A DNA stretch of 47,944 nt, taken from a virus. The position numbers and the translations under genes are program-made. Position 1 is the stretch's first letter; each line of letters opens with the position of its first letter. The stretch covers positions 1 through 47,944 of IMG/VR virus record IMGVR_UViG_3300035698_002466. The stretch is one strand, 5' to 3'. Shown here in pieces: positions 1-47,944 of this stretch. Under the pieces are notes generated by a model. It worked only from the letters and a program-made list of their open reading frames with translations. It searched no databases and was not told the DNA's origin.

Positions 1-120
1 CAATGGGCCAGCAACCGCCAATGGGCCAGCAACCGCCAATGGGCCAGCAACCGCCAATGGGCCAGCAACCGCCAATGGGCCAGCAACCGCCAATGGGCCA
101 GCAACCGCCAATGGGCCAGC
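1..120. repeat. 18-bp tandem repeat at left contig end
   Basis: Six complete copies of caatgggccagcaaccgc fill 1-108, followed by a 12-base partial copy to 120. The same unit fills the right end of the window (47885-47944). Each unit codes for MGQQPP. The shared sequence means the two ends overlap in one repeat, which fits a circular or circularly permuted molecule. Confidence 0.95.
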
Positions 121-248
121 CTGGAACCATGCCGCCGCCTGCAAATGACTTTGTTCAGAATGCAGGGCAACAGCCGCCCGCACAAAACACCGGTCAACCG
201 GCAATGCCTGGAAACATGCAACCAGGAATGCACAACCCAAACGGTTAA
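1..248 (+). CDS. DUF2815-like ssDNA-binding protein, C-terminal part
   Basis: This is the end of the gene that begins at 47239 and runs off the right end of the window. The frame is kept when the ends are joined, with or without removing the 6-bp overlap. It encodes six to seven copies of the hexapeptide MGQQPP, then a short Pro/Gln/Asn-rich tail ending at a TAA at 246-248. The tail is low complexity and probably disordered, as C-terminal tails of single-strand DNA-binding proteins often are. The true repeat number is uncertain because the contig breaks inside the repeat. The in-frame ATG at position 3 is a repeat codon, not a real start. Confidence 0.8.
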   Translation, partial: MGQQPPMGQQPPMGQQPPMGQQPPMGQQPPMGQQPPMGQPGTMPPPANDFVQNAGQQPPAQNTGQPAMPGNMQPGMHNPNG

Positions 249-14870: not shown

Positions 14871-15428
14871 TTATGCCGCCGCGTCATCAACAATTTCAAG
14901 TTGCTGCAAACCAAGCGTAAAGATTTCAAGATCAAAATCTTCATTCCGGCCCATCGGGCGGCGCGGACCGGTCACAAGACCACGGTTATAAATCATGGTT
15001 GGTGTTCCACCAGCGGGCGCATCATTGCGAACAATTTTGAACGCAAAGTTGTTGTTCAAAAGCGATGCGGCGCGCAACGCAATTTGACCGTTATCAGTTG
15101 GAATTCGCGCAAGTTCAATTTCAGGCGAACCGGCATCAGTCATCCCTTTTGCTTTCTGAATAACGCTTGTATCCCAAGTGTCATATGAAAGAATATTTGT
15201 TGAAGGACCGACTTCACCGTGTGAACCAACCGCTTTGATTTGCGTCCAAAACAGTGCTTCATATCCGGCAAGATCAAGATCGGCATCTTCAGCAAGCGGA
15301 ACTTCACCGTCATCAGCGGTTGCAACACCAATCCAAAGCGTTGCCGCCGCGTTTGTGTTTGCGAATGCCAGGGCCGGTTGAACGCCCATTGTCAAAAGGG
15401 TTGGTGTCATGGTTAGAAATCGTTTCAT
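14871..15428 (-). CDS. Major tail (tube) protein with signal-like N-terminus
   Basis: This 185-residue protein stands immediately before the tail chaperones, as major tail proteins do, and is beta-rich throughout (for example LEIFTLGLQQLEIVD at the C-terminus). Its first residues form a basic start (MKR), a hydrophobic stretch and ALAFA, so the N-terminus looks like a Sec signal peptide with an A-x-A cleavage site before Asn-Thr. The start is well supported by AAGGA upstream. The same odd feature is found on the capsid and scaffold proteins. Confidence 0.82.
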   Translation of the reverse strand: MKRFLTMTPTLLTMGVQPALAFANTNAAATLWIGVATADDGEVPLAEDADLDLAGYEALFWTQIKAVGSHGEVGPSTNILSYDTWDTSVIQKAKGMTDAGSPEIELARIPTDNGQIALRAASLLNNNFAFKIVRNDAPAGGTPTMIYNRGLVTGPRRPMGRNEDFDLEIFTLGLQQLEIVDDAAA

Positions 15429-15446
15429 TGCCTTATTCCTTTTCAG

Positions 15447-15938
15447 TTATGGGCGAAAACTACGGTAAGCCATTGATACAGGGTAAAGCGTTTCTTTGCC
15501 AGCCTCAATATCACTCAATAATTTAGGTTCTTCATATATGTTCAGCGCGAAAACGTCAAACCCAACATCATTTAACCAAGCTTGATCATTATCCCAAAGT
15601 TGCCCATTATCCCAAGTTGATGTTGTGAAATATAAAAGCTTTCTTTGTTTTGTAAAATATGAAGAAACGCTTTCAATTACATTCAAAGGTTCATAAATTC
15701 CTTTGTCATTATTAGGCCAATGAAAAATTAAACGAAAAATTCCCTGATACAGTTTTTCAGAACCCCAAAATAAACCATCTGGATTGTTTGGAATAAAAAC
15801 AATTTCAACATATTGTTGATCTTTTGGCGGTTTGAATGTTCGCCCTTTGAACTTGATCGGCAATGTTGGTGTGTTGCTATCTGCAACAGCTTCTTTAACC
15901 GCGTCTTGAAAAGTTCTAATTACCAGTTCATTAGACAT
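15447..15938 (-). CDS. Tail terminator-like protein (DUF4128-like)
   Basis: The 163-residue product resembles tail terminator proteins of the DUF4128 group: an N-terminal helix (about 1-20), then KGRTFKPPKDQQYVEIVFIP and a mixed alpha/beta core. It would cap the tail tube and join it to the head. Residues 109-124 read WDNGQLWDNDQAWLND, nearly the same motif as in the distal-tail-like protein. It lies between the gp10-like gene and the major tail gene, which fits the role. Confidence 0.75.
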   Translation of the reverse strand: MSNELVIRTFQDAVKEAVADSNTPTLPIKFKGRTFKPPKDQQYVEIVFIPNNPDGLFWGSEKLYQGIFRLIFHWPNNDKGIYEPLNVIESVSSYFTKQRKLLYFTTSTWDNGQLWDNDQAWLNDVGFDVFALNIYEEPKLLSDIEAGKETLYPVSMAYRSFRP

Positions 15939-16373
15939 TTATTTAACCCTTGATTTTATTTGCTTTGTTACTTTGTCAACAATCGCGGGCCAATTTTGAA
16001 CGGCTGTTTCAAGAAAACCATCATACGCTTCACGATATTTCGCATAATTCGCCGTCCAACCAAAGAACGCCGCGCCACCTAGTTTCAATTTCGCAAGTGT
16101 TGTGATCACGGTTGTTTGTTGCCAACTGTATTGTTCTTGATCGGCATCCGAGCGAACAGGGCCGGTTGGCATTCCGTTCAATGACATTTGACCAGACGCC
16201 CGCAAAAAACCAGTATCAACCCGCATCTTTCCACCTTTCGCAACTGGTGTTTGTGCTTGGTCAACAAGTTCTTGCGTTGATTGCCGCGCAAGTGCAATCA
16301 ATCTTTTTTCAGTTTTTAAAACTATTTCATCAACTCGCGCTGAAAATTTCTTGACCATGTTGTGAAATTCCAT
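15939..16373 (-). CDS. HK97 gp10-like head-tail/tail completion protein
   Basis: The 144-residue product has the features of the HK97 gp10-like family: an N-terminal amphipathic helix, then KMRVDTGFLRASGQMSLNG (the conserved tsxLR-like segment), YAKYREAYDGFLETAVQNW and a basic C-terminal helix. It takes part in joining tail to head. The stop abuts the next gene. The ATG at 16373 is used here; one at 16358 has GGAAT upstream and is also plausible. Confidence 0.8.
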   Translation of the reverse strand: MEFHNMVKKFSARVDEIVLKTEKRLIALARQSTQELVDQAQTPVAKGGKMRVDTGFLRASGQMSLNGMPTGPVRSDADQEQYSWQQTTVITTLAKLKLGGAAFFGWTANYAKYREAYDGFLETAVQNWPAIVDKVTKQIKSRVK

Positions 16374-16444
16374 CTTGTTTTTGCGTTGGTCATCTGTTAA
16401 GAATTTTTTGAACTATAACACATCATAAGGATTTGAAAAGTAAA

Positions 16445-16699
16445 ATGATGATTGCAAGACTTCAACAATCAACAAGGGTTCTTGGTAAATCGCAAGGTTA
16501 TTTAGGATTACCGGTGCGCGATGTTATTTATCCAGATGGAACGCCTGGAATGCAAACATGTTGGACGCCAACACCAGATGAACTTGAAAAATTAGCAAAA
16601 GGTGCAAACATAATTGTTGAACTTTTGGGAAACATTCAAGACGTTGATGGTAGATCACACCCACCAATTAAACTTTCAGTTGGTAAAATTCCAGAATAA
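16445..16699 (+). CDS. Hypothetical protein upstream of thyX
   Basis: The 84-residue product is not recognised. It is mostly helical at the start with a mid-part holding DGTPGMQTCWTPTPDEL. It lies 12 bases before thyX on the plus strand, inside the minus-strand tail block, and both genes use the same leader ending AAAAGTAAAATG, so they form one cassette. The ATG at 16445 is preferred over a TTG at 16433. An upstream TATAAC at 16414-16419 could be a -10 element, but no good -35 stands at the right distance. Confidence 0.7.
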   Translation: MMIARLQQSTRVLGKSQGYLGLPVRDVIYPDGTPGMQTCWTPTPDELEKLAKGANIIVELLGNIQDVDGRSHPPIKLSVGKIPE

Positions 16700-16711
16700 A
16701 GGAAAAGTAAA

Positions 16712-17365
16712 ATGCATGATGCAAAACTTATATGGGTAACACCGGACGCTGAAGAACTTCTTTGTTACATCGCCCGCGTTTCCAACCCTGAAAACCAACA
16801 CAAAGAACCAGGAACATTGATTTCATATTTGATCAAAAATAAACATTGGTCGCCGTTTGAAATGGTTAGCATGTGCGTTGAAATAAACACAACGCGAACT
16901 ATCGGGCGGCAATGGTTGCGCCACAACCCGCGCCCGCAAGAATTTTCACAACGCTATGAAGAACCTGGAAAGCTTGGAAACTTTGTTTTCACTGAAGCGC
17001 GGTTGCAGGATGAAACAAACCGTCAAGCATCAAATCAAACCGATGATCAAGAACTTATCGGTTGGTGGAATGATGTTCAAACCGAAATTTCAGAACTTGT
17101 TTCATTGCGGTATAAAGAAGCAATGAAACGAAAGCTTGCAAAAGAACTTGCGCGCAATATTTTACCTGAAGGCATGACGCCAACAAAAATGTATTTCAAC
17201 GGTAATTTGCGTGATTGGCTTTTTGCAATTGATCTTAGGGCAGGGCATGGAACGCAACTTGAAGCAACTGAAGTTGCAAAAAGCTTGCATGAACTTTCAG
17301 CGCAAAACTTTCCTTTGACACATTCGGTTTTCTTTAATCAAGATCAGAAAGCCAATCAACAATAG
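16712..17365 (+). CDS. thyX: FAD-dependent thymidylate synthase ThyX
   Basis: The 217-residue protein makes dTMP from dUMP with methylene-tetrahydrofolate and a reduced flavin. It shows the ThyX pattern: HWSPFE (45-50), the signature segment RHNPRPQEFSQRY (70-82, the RHRxxSxxxxSxRY-type motif, with Asn in place of the third residue), and a C-terminal NGNLRDWLFAIDLRAG segment with LRxWxxFxxLR-like spacing. AAGGA stands eight bases before the ATG. It ends with a 32-base overlap with the convergent head gene at 17334. It belongs functionally with the dCMP deaminase at 32605 (dCMP to dUMP). Confidence 0.92.
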   Translation: MHDAKLIWVTPDAEELLCYIARVSNPENQHKEPGTLISYLIKNKHWSPFEMVSMCVEINTTRTIGRQWLRHNPRPQEFSQRYEEPGKLGNFVFTEARLQDETNRQASNQTDDQELIGWWNDVQTEISELVSLRYKEAMKRKLAKELARNILPEGMTPTKMYFNGNLRDWLFAIDLRAGHGTQLEATEVAKSLHELSAQNFPLTHSVFFNQDQKANQQ

Positions 17366-18383
17366 TGCGAACGCGACAACGGCACTTGATTGTTTCTTTT
17401 GCCAAGTCTTTTGCATTGTTTGCACCCGCAAGTGATCGGTCTTGTGGGTGCATCATTGTAACACCGTTTGGAAAAACAAACGCTTCATCCAAACCCACAA
17501 TTGTTCCATCCATCGCCAAATGACTTGGACGGGTTCGCCCATCAGGGCCGGAACTATCCCAAGCGCGCGTAACTCCATTTTTACCCATTGCACCCAATTC
17601 TTGCGCCTGTTTCAACGCTTCATATTCAGAACGGTTCAACGCTTCAATTGCACCATCGCGCGCAATCGTTTCACCGCGCAATTGCAAAAGATTGTTTTTA
17701 TATTGACCGGTCATTTTATTGATGGTTTCAGCATCAACTTTTCCACCATCAAACATTTCTTGAATAATGTCATCAAACCTGGTTGCGCGGCGCGTTCTGG
17801 TGAAATAATTCGGATCAAGGTTTTCAAGATCGCGCCGCATCGCTGCAACCGCGCGTTCTTGTGATGAATTCAAACCAACAATTCCACCTTCACGCAAACC
17901 GGTTTTTCTGTTCACCCGTCCAACAATATCAAGCGCAATATTTCGCGGGTTGCGACCATCCCGAACACCTTCAGAAATCACATTACGAACTGAAACGCGG
18001 GTTCCTTCACCGATGTTTGTGACCATGCTTGCAGACGTTTCACGCAACCATTTTTCCGCGCGGCTGTTCCGAACATCAAAGCGGTAAACGGTTGGTCCTG
18101 AAGGTGTCACCAGGCGGCGCGGAAACGTTTGACCCACGGTCACACCGCCCGCTTCAAAGGCGCGTTCCAGGCTTGCGGTGAACGGGCGCATAGCGGCTTC
18201 AGAATACCCCAACACCTTAAAGGCGCGTTCCGCATCACCTAGTTCAATCGCCCGCACAACATCGCGCAAAATCGCCCGATCAACAACATCAGCAATTCCA
18301 GCCCTGAAGGCATTGGCGATTTCTGGAATGAAACGTTCAACCAATTCTTCAAACAGTTGTTCAAACGATTTTTTACGGGCCAT
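17334..18383 (-). CDS. Head morphogenesis / minor capsid protein (Mu F-like)
   Basis: The 349-residue protein is helical at its N-terminus and ends with the pattern of Mu gpF-like minor head proteins: GETIARDGAIEALNRSEYEA, then TRAWDSSGPDGRTRPSHLAMDG, and a final CRCRVR segment. Such proteins sit on the inside of the head near the portal. Here the gene lies well downstream of the portal, with connector-like genes in between. Its last 32 bases overlap thyX on the other strand. Confidence 0.8.
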   Translation of the reverse strand: MARKKSFEQLFEELVERFIPEIANAFRAGIADVVDRAILRDVVRAIELGDAERAFKVLGYSEAAMRPFTASLERAFEAGGVTVGQTFPRRLVTPSGPTVYRFDVRNSRAEKWLRETSASMVTNIGEGTRVSVRNVISEGVRDGRNPRNIALDIVGRVNRKTGLREGGIVGLNSSQERAVAAMRRDLENLDPNYFTRTRRATRFDDIIQEMFDGGKVDAETINKMTGQYKNNLLQLRGETIARDGAIEALNRSEYEALKQAQELGAMGKNGVTRAWDSSGPDGRTRPSHLAMDGTIVGLDEAFVFPNGVTMMHPQDRSLAGANNAKDLAKETIKCRCRVRTIVDWLSDLD

Positions 18384-18386
18384 GAA

Positions 18387-18767
18387 TTAATTCCTTACAA
18401 TGAAAACAAACGCAACAGTTGTTCCGGCTGAAGGTTTTGGTAAAATTTGAACAATTTTATAACGTTCGTCATCAACTTCAATGAAACCGTTCATGCTTGG
18501 CGTGAGTGATACAACCGCGCCCGCTTCATTTGTTGCCGGAACAGATGCGGTAACTTGAAGATCACCGGCAACAGCAAGACCATTTTGGACGTATTTAAAT
18601 TTAACACCGCGCGCCGCCGCGTCTAACGTGAAAAATGTTTCAGTTGGATCACCAGGTTCATCATCAGGGCCGGTTCCTGGTGTAATGTCAACATACTTTA
18701 TAACACCTTGTTTAAATTCTTTAAGAATGTTTGCGGCAACCGCTTGCATATCATCGTAAAAAGACAT
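18387..18767 (-). CDS. Head-tail connector-like protein
   Basis: The 126-residue product has an N-terminal helix followed by beta strands, with phrases such as TFFTLDAAARGVKFKY and GFIEVDDERYKIVQILPKPS that recall head closure proteins of siphoviruses. It lies between the DnaT-like connector gene and the Mu F-like gene. The family is not certain. Confidence 0.65.
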   Translation of the reverse strand: MSFYDDMQAVAANILKEFKQGVIKYVDITPGTGPDDEPGDPTETFFTLDAAARGVKFKYVQNGLAVAGDLQVTASVPATNEAGAVVSLTPSMNGFIEVDDERYKIVQILPKPSAGTTVAFVFIVRN

Positions 18768-18794
18768 TTTCTTTCCTTTTCTTCATTTTGACGG

Positions 18795-18823
18795 TTGACC
18801 GCATGTTTCACAACAGGTATCAC
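18795..18823 (+). promoter_or_regulatory. Sigma70-type promoter for the 18876 gene
   Basis: TTGACC (18795-18800), a 17-base spacer and TATCAC (18818-18823) point along the plus strand. A leader of about 45 bases runs to the ATG at 18876. The -35 is the same as in the promoter family found elsewhere in the window, but the rest differs. Confidence 0.6.
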
Positions 18824-18875
18824 GGTTCTATCGAAAACGTAACCCTGAAAACCAACTTTGAAAAGGAAAAGAACA

Positions 18876-19346
18876 ATGGCAAAAGCACCCGAAGCACCCA
18901 AAGCACCGCCCGTTGCACCCGCCGCGCCCGTTGCACCCGCCGCGCCCGTTGCCGCGAAAGCCGAAACAACCAAGCGCATTGCGCCCGAACTGACAACCAT
19001 CACCAGTGATGTTGAAATGCCGAAAAAAGTCAGCAAGCGCGGTTCCAAATCGCTTTACCCGTTTGAAAAGCTTGAAGTTAGTCAATCGTTTGGTGTCACC
19101 AACAAAACCGCCGCTGGCATGGCTTCCATCATTTCCAACCAGAACCGCAAGCATCGCGCCGAAAAGCAAGATGAAAACGGCAACACTGTTTTTGAAATGA
19201 AAGACCTGAAAGGTGCTGATGGAACTGTTACGCAGGTTCCAACTGACAAGCCGGTGATTGAAGTTGCCAAGCATTTCTTTGCTTCCAATTGTGACCCGAA
19301 AAAAGACCCTGATGGTGCATCTGTTCGCGTGTTCCGCGACAAATAA
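18876..19346 (+). CDS. Conserved hypothetical protein with Ala/Pro-rich N-terminus
   Basis: The 156-residue product starts with about 35 residues of Ala, Pro, Val and Lys, likely disordered, then a folded part with SKRGSKSLYPFEKLEVSQSF and NKTAAGMASIISNQNRKH. It resembles DUF7303-type small proteins that many phages carry near capsid or DNA-handling genes; the basic helix suggests nucleic acid binding. The function is unknown. The ATG at 18876 has AAGGA eight bases upstream. The gene is a plus-strand cassette inside the minus-strand head block, with its own promoter and terminator. Confidence 0.82.
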   Translation: MAKAPEAPKAPPVAPAAPVAPAAPVAAKAETTKRIAPELTTITSDVEMPKKVSKRGSKSLYPFEKLEVSQSFGVTNKTAAGMASIISNQNRKHRAEKQDENGNTVFEMKDLKGADGTVTQVPTDKPVIEVAKHFFASNCDPKKDPDGASVRVFRDK

Positions 19347-19400
19347 GAATGAACTAGGTTCGGGCGGTTCTTCCCCCGATCAACCTGAACTGTTCATGTG

Positions 19401-19437
19401 ACCGCCCGCAACTTAATTGATGCGGGCGGTTTTCTTA
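19401..19437 (+). terminator. Intrinsic terminator after the 18876 gene
   Basis: A 10-base-pair stem ACCGCCCGCA / TGCGGGCGGT (19401-19410 with 19421-19430) is followed by TTTTCTT. It ends plus-strand transcription just before the convergent stop codon at 19435. Confidence 0.85.
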
Positions 19438-19938
19438 TGTGCGAACTGATGAACCGGTTAGATTTCCAGATGAACCTTTTGCAGACAGCAAACCCGAAAG
19501 AATTTCAGCAACAGTTTTGAATTGCGTTTGAATTTCTGAAGCTGAACCGAATTTTGCGAACTTTGCAGAAACCGCACCATCAACCGAAACAGTATCATAA
19601 ACGCTTGGCGTGTAATCAATCGAAAGAACACCAGGTGAATTCAAATGCCGCAAGGCGATTTCATAAACTGCATTTTCAATTTCACGCGGAATTTGATCAT
19701 CTTCAATCAAATAACCATAATAATCAACATGACCACGGCGCGGCCATTCGCGCAACTGTTCGCGTTCGGCTGTTTTCCATCCCTGGAACTGTGATCGGTA
19801 ACGCGCATCAATCCATTCGGACGCCACCAAAAGCGCAACTTCAATTTCAGCATCAGTATCAACATCAGCCGGAACCGTGTTGTCACGCGCGGCATGATAA
19901 GCGGTGAACGCTGTTGCCGTTCCGTAAAAATCAGGCAT
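19435..19938 (-). CDS. DnaT-like head-tail connector protein
   Basis: The 167-residue product matches the putative DnaT-like group of phage proteins: an early tyrosine/alanine segment (TAFTAYHAARD), then SEWIDARYRSQFQGWKT, REWPRRG and an ENAVYEIALRHL helix. Despite the name, in phage genomes this family sits among the head-tail connectors and probably forms part of the connector ring. It lies downstream of the capsid gene. The C-terminal 30 residues are Ser/Gly-rich. Confidence 0.75.
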   Translation of the reverse strand: MPDFYGTATAFTAYHAARDNTVPADVDTDAEIEVALLVASEWIDARYRSQFQGWKTAEREQLREWPRRGHVDYYGYLIEDDQIPREIENAVYEIALRHLNSPGVLSIDYTPSVYDTVSVDGAVSAKFAKFGSASEIQTQFKTVAEILSGLLSAKGSSGNLTGSSVRT

Positions 19939-20000
19939 TTCATCAATCCTTGTTTGTTTGGATCAGATTACAGGTGTTGAAATTATTTTGCAAATAGTTC

Positions 20001-20029
20001 TTGACCATTTGAATGTTCATCGCTATGTT
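20001..20029 (+). promoter_or_regulatory. Repeated-family promoter for the 20067 gene
   Basis: TTGACC (20001-20006), 17 bases, TATGTT (20024-20029), followed by the conserved downstream box ATCTTAACA. The leader after it is almost identical to that at 29084-29119. It belongs to the family at 27964, 29051 and 29385. Confidence 0.8.
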
Positions 20030-20066
20030 CATCTTAACAACAACGCAAACATGATCGGAACAGACA

Positions 20067-20261
20067 ATGAAAAGAACAGTTTCACAATCGGTTTTTGACA
20101 ATAAAGATAATTTGAAAGCTTCAAAATTAGGTCATCAAGATGCGGTGAAGGAATTGGAAAACACACCGGTTCACATGCTTGATCCTGCAAATCCGAACCA
20201 TCCTTTGAATGATGGAATTTTCGGATATGAAACAAAAGAATTTCTTAACAAACAATATTGA
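20067..20261 (+). CDS. Small hypothetical protein
   Basis: This 64-residue acidic and polar protein is not recognised. It contains LGHQDAVKELENTPVHMLDPANPNHP and no membrane segment or Cys pair. It is driven by its own family promoter and has the ribosome site GGAACAG shared with the 29117 gene. It lies in the minus-strand head block and opens a two-gene plus-strand cassette. Confidence 0.75.
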   Translation: MKRTVSQSVFDNKDNLKASKLGHQDAVKELENTPVHMLDPANPNHPLNDGIFGYETKEFLNKQY

Positions 20262-20263
20262 AC

Positions 20264-20525
20264 AAACAAAAACCGCCCGCAACAACGCAAACAAGGAATA
20301 AAAAATGACATTTTGTGAAGTGATTAAAAAACATTTTGATGGTGATTCAATGGTGTCTTTTATTAGAAAATCAGAACCGCACATTCACTATGATTTTGAC
20401 GCCGCTGAAGGTTTGCATTTTTGGTCTATGAACCATGAAACCGATGAACTTGAAGAACATAGTTTCAACGCTGAACAAATCGTTGCAACAGATTGGGAAA
20501 TTTAAACAAAAACCGCCCGCAACAA
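20264..20525. repeat. 22-bp direct repeats flanking the 20305 gene
   Basis: Identical 22-base copies lie at 20264-20285 and 20504-20525. Each contains aaaaaccgcccgcaacaa, the left arm of the terminator at 20508-20540. They enclose the gene at 20305-20505 and its leader. The pattern suggests that this gene was added by recombination at a terminator. Confidence 0.85.
20305..20505 (+). CDS. Small acidic hypothetical protein
   Basis: The 66-residue protein is strongly acidic (many Glu and Asp) and rich in His and Trp, with FIRKSEPHIHYDFDAAEGL. Strongly acidic small phage proteins often bind basic host targets, but no family is recognised. AAGGAATAAAAAATG gives a good ribosome site. It is flanked by 22-base direct repeats and is probably read from the promoter at 20001. 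Confidence 0.75.
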   Translation: MTFCEVIKKHFDGDSMVSFIRKSEPHIHYDFDAAEGLHFWSMNHETDELEEHSFNAEQIVATDWEI

Positions 20526-20540
20526 TCAAGCGCGGGCGGT
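20508..20540 (-). terminator. Intrinsic terminator between opposed genes
   Basis: ACCGCCCGC (20512-20520) pairs with GCGGGCGGT (20532-20540). On the minus strand it is followed by TTTTTGTTT, so it ends transcription coming from the 20558-20875 gene; on the plus strand the trailing T run is weak, but the stem may also stop the cassette transcript. Confidence 0.82.
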
Positions 20541-20557
20541 TCAATCAATTCAGAAAA

Positions 20558-20875
20558 TCAGGCGGTTGTGTTCAACGCCATGATTGCCGACCAAGCATCA
20601 GCTTCAGAACCATAACCTTTTTCTTCAATACCTTCAGCGGAAATTTTCTTTCCATCTTCACCGACAATGAAGTGTTTGCGACCCTCTTTTGAAACCAGCA
20701 TTTTCACCGGTTCAGCGGGTTCACCGGCTGGTTCGGTTGTGGGTTCACCGGCTGTTTCTTCAGCGGGTTCAACACCATCAACAGTTTCATGAACTTCAGG
20801 GTCATAATCAGTTGCATTGATCAGAACAGGGCCATTTTCTGTTTGAATGGCAATGGTTGGAAGTTTGGAATTCAT
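20558..20875 (-). CDS. Head-region protein with Glu/Pro/Thr repeats
   Basis: The 105-residue product has a beta-like start (TIAIQTENGPVLINATDYD), a low-complexity middle of Glu-Pro-Ala-Gly-Thr (about 35-60) and a C-terminal helix with YGSEADAWSAIMAL. It follows the capsid gene, where a head fibre, decoration or head-tail joining protein is common. No family is certain. AAGGA stands eight bases before the ATG at 20875; the longer frame upstream overlaps the capsid gene and is not used. Confidence 0.72.
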   Translation of the reverse strand: MNSKLPTIAIQTENGPVLINATDYDPEVHETVDGVEPAEETAGEPTTEPAGEPAEPVKMLVSKEGRKHFIVGEDGKKISAEGIEEKGYGSEADAWSAIMALNTTA

Positions 20876-20890
20876 GGGGTTTCCTTCATG

Positions 20891-20920
20891 AAAAATAGGG
20901 CGGGTTATTACACCCGCCCT
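20891..20920 (-). terminator. Intrinsic terminator after the capsid gene
   Basis: AGGGCGGGT (20897-20905) pairs with ACCCGCCCT (20912-20920) over a 6-base loop. On the minus strand it is followed by TATTTTTC. It lies between the capsid gene and the 20875 gene and would leave the capsid message more abundant than the downstream one. Confidence 0.8.
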
Positions 20921-20936
20921 GGTTAACGCTGAAGGA

Positions 20937-22160
20937 TTAGCCCAACAGCAACGCGGTATGTTCCGGCTTGGTTGCTTTGATACCCCAAGCAATCGAAACT
21001 TCAGCTTTTATTTTGCGATAACCTGGATACATCGCAACTTCAAACACAAGACCCGAACGCGGATCAGTGATCATCATGCGCGCAAGCGCCGCATCACCTT
21101 CTTGCGGCAACGCTGGTTGGCGTGTGACCAGGTGAAGCGCATCTTGGCTGAAGGCAACGCTTGCCGCATAATCAGCCGCAAGGGTGATCGCAACAGCCGA
21201 ACCAGGTAACGCTTGACGCAAACCAGGCGCGGCAAGGGTGATCGTGCCACCATCTGAAACATCGGTGTCACCAGCAACAACCAGGTATTCGTTCGCATCG
21301 CCCGCGAACGAAACAACATCACCGGCAATAACCGTTCCGGTTCCGGCACTGGCAAGGGTGATCACCGTTGCGCCTTTTGCATAACCGGCGGTGTTGGTTG
21401 TTGCAGATGCGCCCGTTCCGGCGGTGTGAAGAACCGCTTGACCGCTTTCTTTCAGCGAAATATTGTGAACGTCCATCAATTCACCTTGACGCAAAGTCAT
21501 GGTTGTTCCGGCTTCATTCGCTTTAGTCAATTGTGTGAGCGTCCGAACCGCTGCACCCGCTGAAGTGTTCATGACAAGTGAACGACCAGTTGCGGGCGCG
21601 CCGTTATCATCAAGAATTTTGCGGATTTGGGCGGTATCGCCAAGGTTGGTTGCAAACGGTGTTGTTCCGGCTGTTCCATATGCCCGCGATGCAGCAGCGG
21701 TTGCGGCAACAGCAAGATCAGCTTCAATTTCATTTGTCAGAACACGCAAAGCTTGCGCAATCATATCCGCCTGAACAGAAAGATAACCAGGGCCGGAATT
21801 CAGACCGCGTTGTTCTTCACCGGTGAAACCAAAGCTGGAACCGCGCGATTTGGTAATTGCCATGAAAGACGCACCAACGGTTTGATCAGCGGGTTCAGGA
21901 ATGGACATTGCGGGCGTAATGTCATGTGCTGTTGCAGCACCGGCAACATGATAAGAAACACTTTGACCAAGCGCGGCGCGTTCGGCACCAGGTGCGCGGG
22001 TTGCCGATGGAATGAAACCAACAAGTTCACGCGACACAACATTAACAGCCGCGTAAAGATCAGGAATAAGACCGGTCAGCGTGTTTGCATATGCCGATTG
22101 GTGAACCATTGCCGGTGCGGCAAGGATAGCGGTTGAAGCCGCAAGGAAAGATTTACGCAT
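20937..22160 (-). CDS. Major capsid protein, P22 coat family
   Basis: The 407-residue protein resembles the P22-coat-like group whose members begin near NTLTGLIPDLYAAV and continue VVSRELVGFIPS, FGFTGEEQRGLN, NEIEADLA, RKILDDNGAPATGRSLVMN, and end MITDPRSGLVFEVAMYPGYR with KPEHTALLLG. All of these are present. An inserted beta domain at about 240-320 resembles the P22 insertion domain. Before NTLTG it has 25 extra residues that look like a signal peptide (MRKS, a hydrophobic run, then SAYA). AGGAG before the ATG at 22160 supports this start, and there is no other start near NTLTG. Confidence 0.92.
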   Translation of the reverse strand: MRKSFLAASTAILAAPAMVHQSAYANTLTGLIPDLYAAVNVVSRELVGFIPSATRAPGAERAALGQSVSYHVAGAATAHDITPAMSIPEPADQTVGASFMAITKSRGSSFGFTGEEQRGLNSGPGYLSVQADMIAQALRVLTNEIEADLAVAATAAASRAYGTAGTTPFATNLGDTAQIRKILDDNGAPATGRSLVMNTSAGAAVRTLTQLTKANEAGTTMTLRQGELMDVHNISLKESGQAVLHTAGTGASATTNTAGYAKGATVITLASAGTGTVIAGDVVSFAGDANEYLVVAGDTDVSDGGTITLAAPGLRQALPGSAVAITLAADYAASVAFSQDALHLVTRQPALPQEGDAALARMMITDPRSGLVFEVAMYPGYRKIKAEVSIAWGIKATKPEHTALLLG

Positions 22161-22305
22161 TTTTTGCGCTCCTATGAAAATGTTAAAGTTGTTTTAGGTC
22201 ATCCAACCTGAAGCGCCTTCAATCATCCAATTTCCAGCATTGTTAGGAATTTACATTGATTGAACTGGACGGTCAACAGCTTTCGCGTTTTTTGTGATTT
22301 AGTTC

Positions 22306-22340
22306 TTGACCATCGCTAAGATCATCTTAACAACAACGTC
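22306..22340 (+). promoter_or_regulatory. Promoter-family element with shortened spacer
   Basis: TTGACCATCGC is followed at once by TAAGAT and the conserved ATCTTAACAACAACG. Compared with its relatives, 12 bases are missing between -35 and -10, exactly the unit between the two CCATCGC repeats of the full element. As a sigma70 promoter it should be weak or dead unless another -35 is used. Confidence 0.55.
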
Positions 22341-22359
22341 AACTAAAGGAATTAATAAA

Positions 22360-22575
22360 ATGCAAAAATCAGCAAACGGTTATGCGGAACGCTATGATGT
22401 AAAATTTGGCATTCCCAATGTTAAACCTAAACCTGGTGAAACCTTTGACCGGAATAATGATTTGACACTTTCAGAATGTGGCGCAATTGTTTATCACCGT
22501 GACGGTCTGAAACACGCGGAACAATTTTCAGCGCAACCAGTGATGCGTTTATTGAATATGATCGCCGCCATATGA
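22360..22575 (+). CDS. Small hypothetical protein
   Basis: The 71-residue product is not recognised; it is polar with a hydrophobic C-terminal helix (VMRLLNMIAAI). The ATG at 22360 is preceded by AAGGAATTAATAAA. A TTG at 22306 would extend the frame into the promoter element and is rejected. The gene is a plus-strand cassette between the capsid and scaffold genes. Confidence 0.72.
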   Translation: MQKSANGYAERYDVKFGIPNVKPKPGETFDRNNDLTLSECGAIVYHRDGLKHAEQFSAQPVMRLLNMIAAI

Positions 22576-22655
22576 CAAAAGCCGCATTTGATGAACATTA
22601 CGGTGAAGGTGATGAAGTTTCCGAAAGCATGATGTTACATGGTGTAAACGGTTAA
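22572..22655 (+). CDS. 27-residue acidic peptide
   Basis: A short frame starts on an ATG that overlaps the stop of the gene before it (ATGA). It encodes a 27-residue acidic peptide ending HGVNG. A terminator follows 12 bases later. Its support is only the coupling and the fit between gene and terminator. Confidence 0.45.
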   Translation: MTKAAFDEHYGEGDEVSESMMLHGVNG

Positions 22656-22660
22656 AAAAA

Positions 22661-22706
22661 TAAAAAACCGCCCGCGCTGGAAAACCCCAAAAACAGCGCG
22701 GACGGT
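22661..22706. terminator. Bidirectional intrinsic terminator
   Basis: CCGCCCGCGCTG (22668-22679) pairs with CAGCGCGGACGG (22695-22706), with one G-T pair. The minus strand continues TTTTTTATTTTTTT, which ends messages from the scaffold gene. On the plus strand the stem lies just after the 22655 stop. Confidence 0.82.
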
Positions 22707-22733
22707 TCCTATCAACCAGGGTTTTACGCCCGA

Positions 22734-23555
22734 TCAATCCACAATGTTGACTTCACCCTTGCCAGCAAGCGCCGCCGTTTCAGACTGTTGCGCGGGCGAA
22801 AGCTTGTTGAAATCTGCAAGCTTGATTGTCCGACCAGAACCGCGACCACCACCACCGCCTTCATTGCCCGAACCGCTTTGATCATCAGCTTTCAAAATGC
22901 TGTCTTTGTAAGGGTAAGCATCAACCATGATTTCAAGTGCTTCATCAACACCGGCAACCTCACCCATGTTTTTCTTTGAATACACTTTGTTTCCGGTTTG
23001 GTCATACGGAACAACCTTGCCGTTTTCAACCTTGAAGTTCTTGGCAAATGTTGCCTGGAACATTTCAGCCGGAACGCCAATTTTATTCTTCACGAAATCG
23101 GACGAACCGAAAGCGGTTTGCAATGTCATACCGTTCAAGTTTCCGGTCAAGATTTCAATGGCTTTATCTTTTTCAGCCATTTGCGCGGTGAAACCTTTGC
23201 TGATTTCTTCACGAACTTTTTCAACTTCACCGGCATCAATCAATTTCTTTTGATCAATGTTTTTCAACGTTTCGATTGCTTCAGCCGCTTTGACCGGATC
23301 AAGGTCTTTATATTTTTCAAGTTTTTGTTCAGCCGCTTCTTTCGCTTCACGGTGTGTTTTTGCTTCACCGTTCAATCGGCTGATGGTATCACCGGCAACG
23401 CTTTGTTCTTTTCCATCGCCCGCAATATAAATCGGGTTGCCTTTATCATCTTTTTCAAGATTTCCATCAGCGTCAACTTTCCAACCGTTCTTGTTGTCAA
23501 AAGCAATCGGAAAAGCAAGCAACATGCTTGCGGTCATCATCAGGTTCTTTTTCAT
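22734..23555 (-). CDS. Scaffold protein (DUF6651-like) with signal-like N-terminus
   Basis: The 273-residue product has the scaffold pattern: a short DGNLEKDDKGNPIYI start, a long charged coiled coil (about 50-130, with RLNGEAKTHREAKEAAEQKLEKY), and a middle with FVKNKIGVPAEMFQATFAKNF. The C-terminus is Gly-rich. It would direct capsid assembly. The N-terminus (MKKN, then a hydrophobic run ending PIAF) looks like a secretion signal and precedes the usual family start by about 22 residues. The start at 23555 has GAAAGGA upstream; an ATG at 23576 is in frame but less well placed. Confidence 0.83.
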   Translation of the reverse strand: MKKNLMMTASMLLAFPIAFDNKNGWKVDADGNLEKDDKGNPIYIAGDGKEQSVAGDTISRLNGEAKTHREAKEAAEQKLEKYKDLDPVKAAEAIETLKNIDQKKLIDAGEVEKVREEISKGFTAQMAEKDKAIEILTGNLNGMTLQTAFGSSDFVKNKIGVPAEMFQATFAKNFKVENGKVVPYDQTGNKVYSKKNMGEVAGVDEALEIMVDAYPYKDSILKADDQSGSGNEGGGGGRGSGRTIKLADFNKLSPAQQSETAALAGKGEVNIVD

Positions 23556-23623: not shown

Positions 23624-25129
23624 TTAGGGATTATCGTCATCGGGGTTGTTATCGTCATCTTCACCGAAATCATCCCCAGGAATTTCAGCCAAGATATTCT
23701 TTATTTCATCATCATGCGTGAATTCAGATGAAAGAACGCCGCGCCGCTTTGTTTCAGCGTGAAGTGTTTTCTGTGAAAGATCGCCATTTTCCCGCAATGA
23801 ACGCAAGTGTTCAAGACCACCATCACCATCAAGGAAATTATCAAATTCAGTGTAAACGTTCACATCTGGTTCTTGCCCATCAAGCTTCAACCAAAGCGCG
23901 GTGATTTTCATTGCGTTTTCAAGCGCATCTTTCAAACCGATTGCCCATGCACCAACCGCGCTTTTCGCTTTGCTTGCCGCCATTGCCGAATTGATAACGG
24001 TTGTGTTTGTTTGTGCGGTCAAGGGTTGCCGCCCAAGTTCACGCAAATCTTGCTTGGTTTCTTTAATGTCACCGGCAAGGAATGTGAGCGATGTTGCAGC
24101 GGGTTCAACATATGACCAGGAACCCGAATTACCAGCACCATCAGGCGGCGCATATAAAACCTTTGTTGGTCCAACCGAAATTTGTTTGATATTACCGTTT
24201 TCATCCTTTTCAGGCTTCACACCGTTACCTGAAAGCATTGGATAAGCCGCAAGAATTTTCGCAAATTTCAATGCGCTTTCCTGTTGGTAAAGTTCAATCT
24301 GAAGATCAGCCGCATCTTGCATTGATGGAAGGTAACGATAACCGGAACCATCGCGCCGCCCTGTTGCAAACGAAACCATCGGAATAACGTTGATTGTGAG
24401 AATGCCGGAACCTTCAACAATCCATTCTGTTTTTCCAGATGTTCCAGCAACAAGTTTCTTGTAAACCGTCCAGGTAACAACGCCGTTATCATCACGTTTG
24501 AATTCACGAACTTTAACAACTGCACCAGGTTCAAGAATTCGGATCAACGTGATAATTCGTTCACCGTTCATTGTTCTGGTTTCAGCGGTTAGAACGTTGC
24601 GCCCCAATACATGCGACCAGAACGGGCGAACGCCCGCTTTCTTTTGATCGGCTTTGGTTTTGACTTTGTTTTTATCAACAGTTGGATAATCAATCAAAAT
24701 CCAATCAATCGCATGTGCAATTCCGTTGAAAAACGTTTCGCTTGCAAAGATTGAAAGATGATTTCCATCACCATCAACATCTTCAATGAAATCAGTGAAA
24801 GCTTGGTTGACCGCATCACCATCAGCGATTGAAACCGGTTCTTCAAATGGTTTTGCTGAAAGTGCTTCCACAATATCGCGGTAAATGTTTGTGAATTTGG
24901 TTGCTTCAAGCCGAAAATCATAATCAACTTGTTCTTCTTTTGGAAATTTCGGCAAAAATTGCTTTTCAGCGTCACGCATGGTTTTGATACCACCCATGAT
25001 TGCATCTGTCTTATTCCAATAATCAACCATCGCCGCGCTATCGGGCGAACGTTTATCAACATGTTCATTTTCAAACGCAACAGGACGTTCAATGAAAGTG
25101 TTAAGCGCCGTAATTCCCTGAAACCGCAT
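23624..25129 (-). CDS. Portal protein (DUF4055-like)
   Basis: The 501-residue protein matches the DUF4055 portal group: DAIMGGIKTMRDAEKQFLPKFPKE at the start, YRDIVEALSAKPFEEP, the segment DYPTVDKNKVKTKADQKKAGVRPFW, and DLQIELYQQESALKFA with LRELGRQPLTAQT further on. The C-terminus is very acidic (GDDFGEDDDNNPDDDNP). It forms the ring through which DNA enters the head. The ATG at 25129 follows GAGGATA; the TTG at 25147 is rejected. It overlaps the terminase gene by 29 bases. Confidence 0.9.
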   Translation of the reverse strand: MRFQGITALNTFIERPVAFENEHVDKRSPDSAAMVDYWNKTDAIMGGIKTMRDAEKQFLPKFPKEEQVDYDFRLEATKFTNIYRDIVEALSAKPFEEPVSIADGDAVNQAFTDFIEDVDGDGNHLSIFASETFFNGIAHAIDWILIDYPTVDKNKVKTKADQKKAGVRPFWSHVLGRNVLTAETRTMNGERIITLIRILEPGAVVKVREFKRDDNGVVTWTVYKKLVAGTSGKTEWIVEGSGILTINVIPMVSFATGRRDGSGYRYLPSMQDAADLQIELYQQESALKFAKILAAYPMLSGNGVKPEKDENGNIKQISVGPTKVLYAPPDGAGNSGSWSYVEPAATSLTFLAGDIKETKQDLRELGRQPLTAQTNTTVINSAMAASKAKSAVGAWAIGLKDALENAMKITALWLKLDGQEPDVNVYTEFDNFLDGDGGLEHLRSLRENGDLSQKTLHAETKRRGVLSSEFTHDDEIKNILAEIPGDDFGEDDDNNPDDDNP

Positions 25130-43415: not shown

Positions 43416-44203
43416 AACCCTGCAACCCGCATGATCGCCGGATAATAATATTCAGGCAACTGTTCAATGCAAATCCATTTGCGCCCGCACTGTTCCGCCG
43501 CAACCGCTGTTGTTCCAGAACCGGAAAACGGATCAAGGACTAGATCACCAGGGTTTGACCATGAAATGATATGGTCATTTGCAATTTGAATAGGGAACAT
43601 TGCGGGATGACCATGTTTCTTACTATTTTTTTCTTCATTTATTTTCCAAACATTGAAACGCTGCCCAAATTCATTGATTGTTTTTTTACCTTTTCCATTG
43701 ACCGCAATTGTTGAACCGTTTTTTTGTCTCACTGTCCCATGATGTTCAACATTTGCGTGAATATTTTTTCTGTCTTTAATCGGATTGAAAGTGTTTGGTT
43801 TTCCATTGGAAAAAACAAACATATATTCAAAAACAGGTGCATATCTTACTTTCAAAGCACCAACCGCTGAAAATGTAGATTTTTGCCAAATCATTGTATC
43901 ATGTAAATTCAGATTACATTCGTCTTTGAAATATAAAGCCTGTCTAAAACTGGAACCTGTTTCACTTCCATTGATTGTTTCATCACCAACATTCCAAACA
44001 ATAACACCACCTTTAGAAATGCAGCGTGTTAATTCCTTCGCAATTGGTTTGAAAACATCAAAAGACCAATTCAAAGAACCTTCATATGTTCTGATATTGT
44101 CATATGGTGGCGATGTAATGACCATATTAACAGAACCATCGGGAATGTCTTTCATCAGTTTAAGACAATCACCCAACCAGAATTGACCATTCTTAATCAA
44201 CAT
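43412..44203 (-). CDS. DNA N4/N6 methyltransferase (beta class)
   Basis: The 263-residue enzyme has motif IV TSPPYDN (30-36) before motif I DPFSGSGTT (224-232), the beta-class order. TSPPY is common in both N4-cytosine and N6-adenine enzymes, so the base is not settled. The target site is unknown. The ATG at 44203 overlaps the upstream stop by seven bases; an ATG at 44302 would extend it into that gene. A 50-residue copy of its end lies at 34463-34615. It probably protects phage DNA from host nucleases. Confidence 0.9.
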   Translation of the reverse strand: MLIKNGQFWLGDCLKLMKDIPDGSVNMVITSPPYDNIRTYEGSLNWSFDVFKPIAKELTRCISKGGVIVWNVGDETINGSETGSSFRQALYFKDECNLNLHDTMIWQKSTFSAVGALKVRYAPVFEYMFVFSNGKPNTFNPIKDRKNIHANVEHHGTVRQKNGSTIAVNGKGKKTINEFGQRFNVWKINEEKNSKKHGHPAMFPIQIANDHIISWSNPGDLVLDPFSGSGTTAVAAEQCGRKWICIEQLPEYYYPAIMRVAGL

Positions 44204-44619
44204 TTGACAAGCACCATAATTCCCCAAAATCCGTTTGAATTCGGACCTGAAACTTTGCTTTGAACCCATGACGGATTGTGAACAACCTTGCCATTGCAGC
44301 AAACAACAATGTGATCACCGCCGCCCGCTGAACAAAATAAACCAAAATGAACATCAGGGTTTTGCACCGCTTGAATGTTCAAAATATCTTCAAGGCTTTC
44401 TGAACCTGGATAATATGCGACAAACGGAACAAGACCTTGTGTTTCAAGATAATCACGCAACCGCTGATGACCTGTTTCACCGTTGCAATTATCATGAAAG
44501 AAATGCGGAACTTTTTCAGGCGGTTCAATTTCAAGAATTGACGCCACAACAGCCCGCAAACAATCGCCAAATTTATCTTGTTCCGGTTCATGATTAACGC
44601 GACAAAATGCAGGGATCAT
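44197..44619 (-). CDS. Papain-like cysteine-peptidase-fold protein
   Basis: The 140-residue product has FGDCLRAVVASILEIEPPEKVPHF (17-40), with Cys20 in the position of a catalytic Cys, then GGGDHIVVCCNGKVVHNPS (100-118) with a His and Asn/Pro as in C39- or NlpC-like folds. Similar proteins are common in phages and their substrate is not known. It lies between the clamp-like gene, whose stop directly precedes its start, and the methyltransferase gene. Confidence 0.66.
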   Translation of the reverse strand: MIPAFCRVNHEPEQDKFGDCLRAVVASILEIEPPEKVPHFFHDNCNGETGHQRLRDYLETQGLVPFVAYYPGSESLEDILNIQAVQNPDVHFGLFCSAGGGDHIVVCCNGKVVHNPSWVQSKVSGPNSNGFWGIMVLVKC

Positions 44620-47238: not shown

Positions 47239-47944
47239 ATGGGAACGGAAATTAAAACTGGTGTTGGTCGCATTGTTTGGGGCAACCCTGCAAAGCCCCA
47301 AATCAAAAAAGACGTTCAAACAAAACAACCTGTTTTGCGCGATGGTCAACAGGTTCAACAATGGGTTTTTGGTGTTGCCTTTCCAAAAGCTGAATTTGAA
47401 CAAATGATTTGGCCCGCAATGGCGAAAGAAAGCGCACAAGGGTATCCCAACGGCGCGCCGCAACATTTCGCTTGGAAATACAATGACGGTGATGGTGTTG
47501 ATAGCAATGGGCAACCGTTTTCCAGCCGTGAAGGTTATGCTGGTCATTACGTTCTGACAATTTCAACTGAAGCGTTCGCGCCACCCGTTTATAAATTGGT
47601 AAATGGTGCATACGTCCAACTTCAGCCGGATCAAATCAAAACCGGTGATTATGTTGTTCTTGCGCTGAATATTGTTGTGAACGTTCCAACCAATCGGACG
47701 CACACACCTGGTTTGTATGTCAACCCCGTTGCGATTGAACATGTTGGTTATGGTCAAGAAATTCACAATGGGCCAGATGCGCAACAATTGTTTGGCGGTT
47801 CGCAATATCAGTTGCCAGCCGGTGCTTCACAAACACCCGTTGCATCGGGCGGCGCGGGAATGCCTGGAACCGGTCAACAGCCGCCAATGGGCCAGCAGCC
47901 GCCAATGGGCCAGCAACCGCCAATGGGCCAGCAACCGCCAATGG
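47239..47944 (+). CDS. DUF2815-like ssDNA-binding protein, N-terminal part
   Basis: The gene starts with AAAAGGAACCCAAAAATG and runs off the window into positions 1-248, giving about 315 residues when joined. It has the DUF2815 pattern: a VWGNPAKPQ start, WVFGVAFPKAEFEQMIWPAM, DGDGVDSNGQPFSSREGYAGH, and an OB-fold-like YVVLALNIVVNVPT and GLYVNPVAIEHVGYG. Members bind single-stranded DNA in phage replication. It is next to the DUF2800 nuclease and upstream of the polymerase. The MGQQPP tail begins near residue 213. Confidence 0.85.
   Translation, partial: MGTEIKTGVGRIVWGNPAKPQIKKDVQTKQPVLRDGQQVQQWVFGVAFPKAEFEQMIWPAMAKESAQGYPNGAPQHFAWKYNDGDGVDSNGQPFSSREGYAGHYVLTISTEAFAPPVYKLVNGAYVQLQPDQIKTGDYVVLALNIVVNVPTNRTHTPGLYVNPVAIEHVGYGQEIHNGPDAQQLFGGSQYQLPAGASQTPVASGGAGMPGTGQQPPMGQQPPMGQQPPMGQQPPM
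47885..47944. repeat. 18-bp tandem repeat at right contig end
   Basis: One variant copy (47885-47902, with cagcagccg), two exact copies (47903-47938) and a 6-base partial copy match the repeat at 1-120. The last 42 bases are identical to bases 1-42. Confidence 0.95.

Follow-up and report, generated by a model that had tools for sequence, protein, structure and literature searches.

Tailed phages cut their head precursors with prohead proteases; these systems rely on a dedicated protease that cleaves head proteins within the prohead at A/S-x-E-type motifs. In T4, a short N-terminal capsid targeting sequence marks several internal proteins, directs them into the head and is cut by the phage protease. 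In HK97, an N-terminal delta domain of ~100 residues is found on the capsid protein alone and acts as scaffold. Multi-substrate maturation, in which one factor acts on short N-terminal propeptides with a shared motif, is represented by T4 gp21 and phiKZ-like/SPN3US gp245 (PMC10052503). The phage record IMGVR_UViG_3300035698_002466 of 47,944 bases (the window, that is, the whole stretch of DNA analysed) encodes on its minus strand a portal, a scaffold, a P22-type coat protein and a tail tube, and each of them begins with a short extension, here called a leader. Leaders of this kind stand before the ancestral N-terminus of unrelated proteins across one clade of phages, Rigallicvirus and its relatives; they are shared and modular, they covary within each virus, and they were lost along with one gene.

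As with the multi-substrate prohead propeptides, one phage factor would act on the leaders of several virion proteins at a shared motif, but the leaders are hydrophobic, only 9–33 amino acids (aa) long (median 18) and A-F/Y-ended, and they are also found on the tail tube and the SSB protein. Like the HK97 delta domain, the capsid leader is an N-terminal piece that is possibly removed on assembly; however, a separate scaffold protein is present here and bears its own leader. The T4 capsid targeting sequence is likewise a short tag on several proteins, whereas the carriers here are the capsid, tube and SSB. The basic start, the hydrophobicity, the lack of acidic residues and the degenerate sequence recall Sec signal peptides and mitochondrial-type presequences, from which the leaders depart in that many are too short, the junction is aromatic and the cargo is cytoplasmic. 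Salicola CGphi29 and HK639 have the same capsid and scaffold families (P22-type coat, GP20/DUF6651-like scaffold) in the same gene order, but their capsids have the ancestral N-terminus and no leader. The leader-bearing genes of the window, with their presumed mature parts, are as follows:

14871–15428, minus strand: tail-tube gene, leader plus mature part, MKRFLTMTPTLLTMGVQPALAF followed by ANTNAA
15363–15428, minus strand: tail-tube leader, 22 aa, MKRFLTMTPTLLTMGVQPALAF, before the ancestral ANTNAA (untagged homologues start M-ANTN)
14871–15362, minus strand: mature part of the tail tube (phrog_158, major tail protein)
20937–22160, minus strand: capsid gene, leader plus mature part, MRKSFLAASTAILAAPAMVHQSAY followed by ANTLTG
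22089–22160, minus strand: capsid leader, 24 aa, MRKSFLAASTAILAAPAMVHQSAY, before the ancestral N-terminus ANTLTG (outgroups M-ANTLT)
20937–22088, minus strand: mature part of the capsid, P22-type coat (PF11651, E=1.2e-7; phrog_283, E=1e-88)
22734–23555, minus strand: scaffold gene, leader plus mature part, MKKNLMMTASMLLAFPIAF followed by DNKNGW
23499–23555, minus strand: scaffold leader, 19 aa, MKKNLMMTASMLLAFPIAF, mature start DNKNGW (placed by its ribosome site and by alignment with P106B and X2_24)
22734–23498, minus strand: mature part of the scaffold (DUF6651 / phrog_784 and phrog_206)
25073–25129, minus strand: portal leader, MRFQGITALNTFIERPVAF followed by ENEHVD, mature start ENEHVDKRSPDS

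The original prediction had placed extensions on the capsid, scaffold and tail tube behind strong ribosome sites. The three proteins and their positions proved correct, and GGA/AGGAG-type sites precede all three starts. Wrong start codons were considered and rejected: the ribosome site stands before the long start, and the internal ATGs mostly have none. Since outgroup capsids start M-ANTLT, the capsid extension is 24 residues, in agreement with the family start given in that prediction. The phrog_283 match begins at residue 25, the family profile lying over the mature protein as for a P22-type coat. Residues 1–25 of the capsid are disordered in the AlphaFold model, and the fold begins with a helix at 28–44. 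The short-term pN/pS of the leaders was 0.11, similar to the 0.09 of the rest of the proteins, from small counts. In the relatives L001, L002, L014, L015 and L028, the tube is longer by a C-terminal domain of ~80 aa that looks Ig-like by eye; the tube of the window (14871–15428) lacks it.

Relatives were gathered by IMG/VR scans with capsid, tube, scaffold and terminase queries, and 157 leaders on 67 viral contigs were catalogued by hand. They belong to six unrelated families (capsid, scaffold, tail tube, portal, a small head-region protein and a DUF7303 protein), and SSB is a further carrier in some viruses. The supposition that the ends are unique to this phage thus failed: alignment of homologues showed similarly extended capsids, scaffolds and tubes, with different extension sequences, in the closest isolates, Rhizobium phage P106B and Sinorhizobium phage RHph_X2_24 (Rigallicvirus), and such extensions occur also in ~40 metagenomic relatives. 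All three proteins are extended in all but a few viruses of the clade. Untagged coats starting M-ANTLT were found in Salicola CGphi29, Acinetobacter qsb1 and dozens of IMG/VR contigs. Of the 1281 gene calls of 16 tagged genomes, 74 matched a fixed leader pattern, concentrated on the leader families, vs. 9 of 417 in five untagged genomes, with 0 on those families; this regular-expression scan also matches some false gene calls, and single matches outside the named families were left uncounted. The extensions exceed chance. No leaders of this kind were found in host prophages among 22 genome-collection matches. L394 is partly tagged and mosaic, with a leader on the scaffold (MKKKLKLLTSAIAF) and none on capsid or portal; L174 has leaders on capsid and scaffold and a leader-less tube that starts MADTLSGAK, like another tube lineage.

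The leaders start M-K/R, and Asp or Glu accounts for 10 of their 2929 residues. The last residue is Phe in 91, Tyr in 55, His in 8 and another in 3, and the penultimate one is Ala in 124, Gly in 17 and Val in 9. A small residue followed by Phe, Tyr or His stands directly before the old start in 154 of 157; each leader end was assigned manually to whichever aromatic lies closest to the ancestral start. In nearly all cases, Tyr in capsids and Phe or Tyr in tubes occupies the position of the old initiator Met. Upstream of this small-aromatic junction the sequence drifts freely. The P106B capsid has the leader MRKNLILPSLAAP, with ASANTLTR after its Ala-Tyr. The capsid leader of L010 is a variant with a mid-leader Arg (MRKSFRAAST), which would weaken a true signal peptide.

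The feature extends beyond the three virion proteins of the original prediction: the portal is a fourth carrier in the window, and three further proteins, untagged there, bear leaders in relatives:

18876–19346, plus strand: DUF7303 protein; leader in about 10 relatives, in P106B MKTALNLITATAF followed by ANG; none in the window
20558–20875, minus strand: small head-region protein; leader in 11 relatives, e.g., MKTILFASAATVAALAF followed by MSDTVETV; none in the window
47239–47941, plus strand: SSB (Gp2.5-like); leader in G013, G016, G017 and two more contigs; none in the window

The gene of the small head-region protein comes after the capsid gene. Portal leaders in relatives include MFRKLHLLSSTAF before ANN in P106B, MRKHLLASAAY before NN in X2_24 and ..KKIIAF before ENVV in L037, and the portals of untagged relatives start near ..KRSPD. 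A leader can directly precede the old Met, as in the small protein (..ALAF before MSDTVETV) and in SSB (..TAAAY before MSGDPG). The leader is therefore modular. Among the listed genes of P106B and RHph_X2_24, those for portal, scaffold, capsid, tube and DUF7303 protein have clear leaders, and none were seen on the terminase, tape measure, adaptor, MuF-like, tail-tip, fibre and replication proteins. The SSB gene of the window runs off the right end within a repeat, and a QPPMG-repeat frame at 3–248 (plus strand) resembles its continuation; perhaps the genome is circular and complete in this record, opened within the repeat. The frame at 16712–17365 (plus strand) may encode a ThyX-type (flavin-dependent) thymidylate synthase.

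Within one virus, the leaders of different proteins were alike. Over the last seven residues of 224 pairs, the likeness exceeded that of shuffles, in which each family's leaders were kept and reassigned to other viruses, at z=14, and at z=14.6 with viruses >75% capsid-identical collapsed and the capsid omitted. With capsid distance controlled for, the divergence of tube leaders correlated with that of scaffold leaders (partial Mantel r=0.24, p=0.002). Three proteins of L017 shared the ending VFAF or MFAF, most of the seven leaders in G013 ended GF/GY, those of G016 and G017 ended AY, and G001 and G019 showed P-V-A-F and L177 P-Q-A-F. At identical residues the codons agreed in 39% of cases vs. 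the 34% that codon usage predicts; most of the likeness therefore does not come from recent DNA copying. This within-virus covariation indicated a trans factor that reads the leaders, with a preference differing between viruses. Copying of leaders between genes as DNA was thus rejected by the codon comparison, bar one case. In this one likely case of copying (L124, portal and tail tip), the tail-tip protein L281 of G012 has a leader (MLRLSKTSKLPRVF) nearly identical to that of the L282 portal (MLNISKLPRVF), with 85% identical DNA.

The leaders were lost together with one gene, which is given here as a candidate:

44197–44619, minus strand: candidate leader peptidase, 140 aa (phrog_5845; no Pfam/NCBIfam family)

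This gene was present on 20 of 20 leader-bearing contigs that show its place (the window, P106B, RHph_X2_24, G001, G002, G012–G014, G016–G021, G027, G030, G031 and the contigs of L450, L413 and L433). The near-complete relatives G022 and G029 have no leader at all (starts M-ANVLT/M-ANTLT and M-ANTN), and both lack the 140-aa gene with synteny kept: in G022 the helicase follows p44620 with nothing between, and in G029 the two are separated by nothing but an unrelated 78-codon frame. In a quick TerL tree they are nested in the leader-bearing clade (subclade support 100), and they possibly represent separate losses (branch support 83–94). L450, on the same contig as L143 and in the same short-leader subclade as G022 and G029, has both leaders and the gene at the same place; L449, which comes from the same sample as the partly tagged L394, likewise keeps the gene there. 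The co-occurrence of gene and leaders (20/20 vs. 0/2) gave p=0.004 by a simple exact count that ignores relatedness. As to the neighbouring helicase, its homology in G029 (L528, 6384–9026) is interrupted by an intein-like open reading frame of ~1 kb, and the helicases of G012 and G013 are also ~900 aa.

When the gene content of 16 leader-bearing genomes was compared with that of 5 leader-less ones, few leader-specific families remained, namely the DUF7303 protein, the small head-region protein and the 140-aa protein. The last was the sole peptidase-like family in the conserved gene set, and no prohead protease gene turned up in the terminase-to-tail region of the window or of P106B. In the 140-aa protein, Cys20 and His103 are invariant, and position 115 is Asp or Asn in 14 of 14 sequences (Asn115 in the window), a conserved Cys, His and Asp/Asn as in papain-like or C39-like peptidases. 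In the AlphaFold model (pLDDT 90), the Cys lies at the N-end of helix 19–28 and the His in strand 101–108. Foldseek matches were weak (E>0.1) and included josephins and SpeB, and a viral library returned matches to uncharacterised phage proteins only.

On balance we favour, with some reserve, the interpretation that the leaders are propeptides recognised by one trans-acting factor per virus, cut after Ala-Phe/Tyr, probably by the 140-aa protein, and holding assembly back. Cleavage just after this junction would restore the ancestral N-terminus (ANTLTG, ANTN, DNKNGW), and the likely enzyme would be the Cys-His-Asp/Asn protein at 44197–44619. Until release, the leader would keep the abundant self-assembling capsid, scaffold, portal and tube, and sometimes SSB, in a non-assembling state; we infer this purpose, which is the least certain step. 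The original prediction had also suggested delta-domain-like tags, or removal by a phage or host protease; the ends are indeed added, and on several virion proteins, and they could be delta-domain-like tags that a phage protease removes. More tentatively, and with more doubt than confidence, we propose that a single phage cysteine peptidase of an undescribed family removes coevolving leaders from head, tail and replication proteins and so switches on these assemblies together.

Several observations weigh against this interpretation. The peptidase assignment, which makes the 140-aa protein a candidate, rests on the conserved Cys, His and Asp/Asn and on the topology of the model, and the protein had no significant match in PDB, Pfam or NCBIfam. 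Homologues occur in phages with leader-less structural proteins (Mallos, AXL_3, Me-ZS1, Sansa and G040–G042), and no leaders were found in the distant carriers of the family that were checked; therefore the role of the protein there differs, or its presence is insufficient. Once phylogeny was accounted for, divergence of the 140-aa protein showed no signal of following that of the leaders (partial r=0.10, p=0.22). The leader-less genomes in which the locus is covered are just two, and the 98% figure for aromatic ends is somewhat inflated because the ends were hand-placed at an aromatic. No N-terminal or mass-spectrometry data on virion proteins of P106B or RHph_X2_24 were found in the open literature.

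The propeptide interpretation has to be set against retention of the leaders as a hydrophobic-aromatic tag that draws proteins to one place or partner, such as the inner membrane, a chaperone or an assembly site. The covariation requires a shared partner, which need not be a protease, and the basic-hydrophobic composition would suit such a tag. However, the aromatic falls precisely where the old start was, the small-aromatic end is kept while the remainder drifts, the capsid leader is predicted to be disordered, and the leaders were lost with a peptidase-like gene, so that we judge retention unlikely, though the most credible of the rivals. Cutting by a host enzyme (e.g., an M16/MPP-like or Clp-type protease), with the Cys-His-Asp/Asn gene otherwise employed, appears more doubtful still: the phage gene family does extend beyond the leader clade and the composition may be called presequence-like, but the way the end motif changes in concert within each virus, and the joint loss of leaders and a phage gene, speak for a factor of the phage.

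Membrane targeting, as originally predicted, would make the leaders ordinary Sec signal peptides that tie assembly to the inner membrane and are removed by signal peptidase I. They share with these the M-K/R start and hydrophobic run (K/R within residues 2–6 in 150 of 157; best 7-mer hydropathy with a median of 2.3, down to 0.8); AxA occurs in 61 of 157 and some −3/−1-compatible site in 126. However, against the ~15–30 residues of Sec peptides, 42 of the 157 have at most 15 aa, 27 at most 13 and one only 9. A −3/−1 site is found in just 18 of 31 scaffold and 11 of 17 portal leaders, many scaffolds having P at −3; the conserved junction residue is aromatic, which signal peptidase I does not require; some capsid leaders are polar, with no hydrophobic core (L137, MNKTAKKKKVATFNILSGAY); and instead of cargo bound for the outside of the cytoplasm, the leaders stand on the cytoplasmic SSB, the scaffold and the portal. 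Sec signal peptides thus fit badly, because many leaders are of 9–13 aa, SSB is among the cargo and the aromatic is conserved. The leaders are probably not export signals, the resemblance being one of composition only, and Sec export is very unlikely. Marginally less likely again is that they are 5′ coding extensions that just boost translation of abundant proteins, the peptide sequence being irrelevant; the carriers are expected to be abundant and Lys is common as the second residue, but the peptides converge with different codons, the junction is conserved and the loss occurred alongside a specific gene.

For annotation, caution is needed, as programs that predict signal peptides may wrongly call these structural proteins secreted. 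The leader-bearing isolates P106B and RHph_X2_24 and the leader-less relatives form a natural experiment, and the propeptide interpretation gives a testable function to phrog_5845, a widespread phage family without a known role. If it is true, one factor would gate several assembly pathways at once in these phages.

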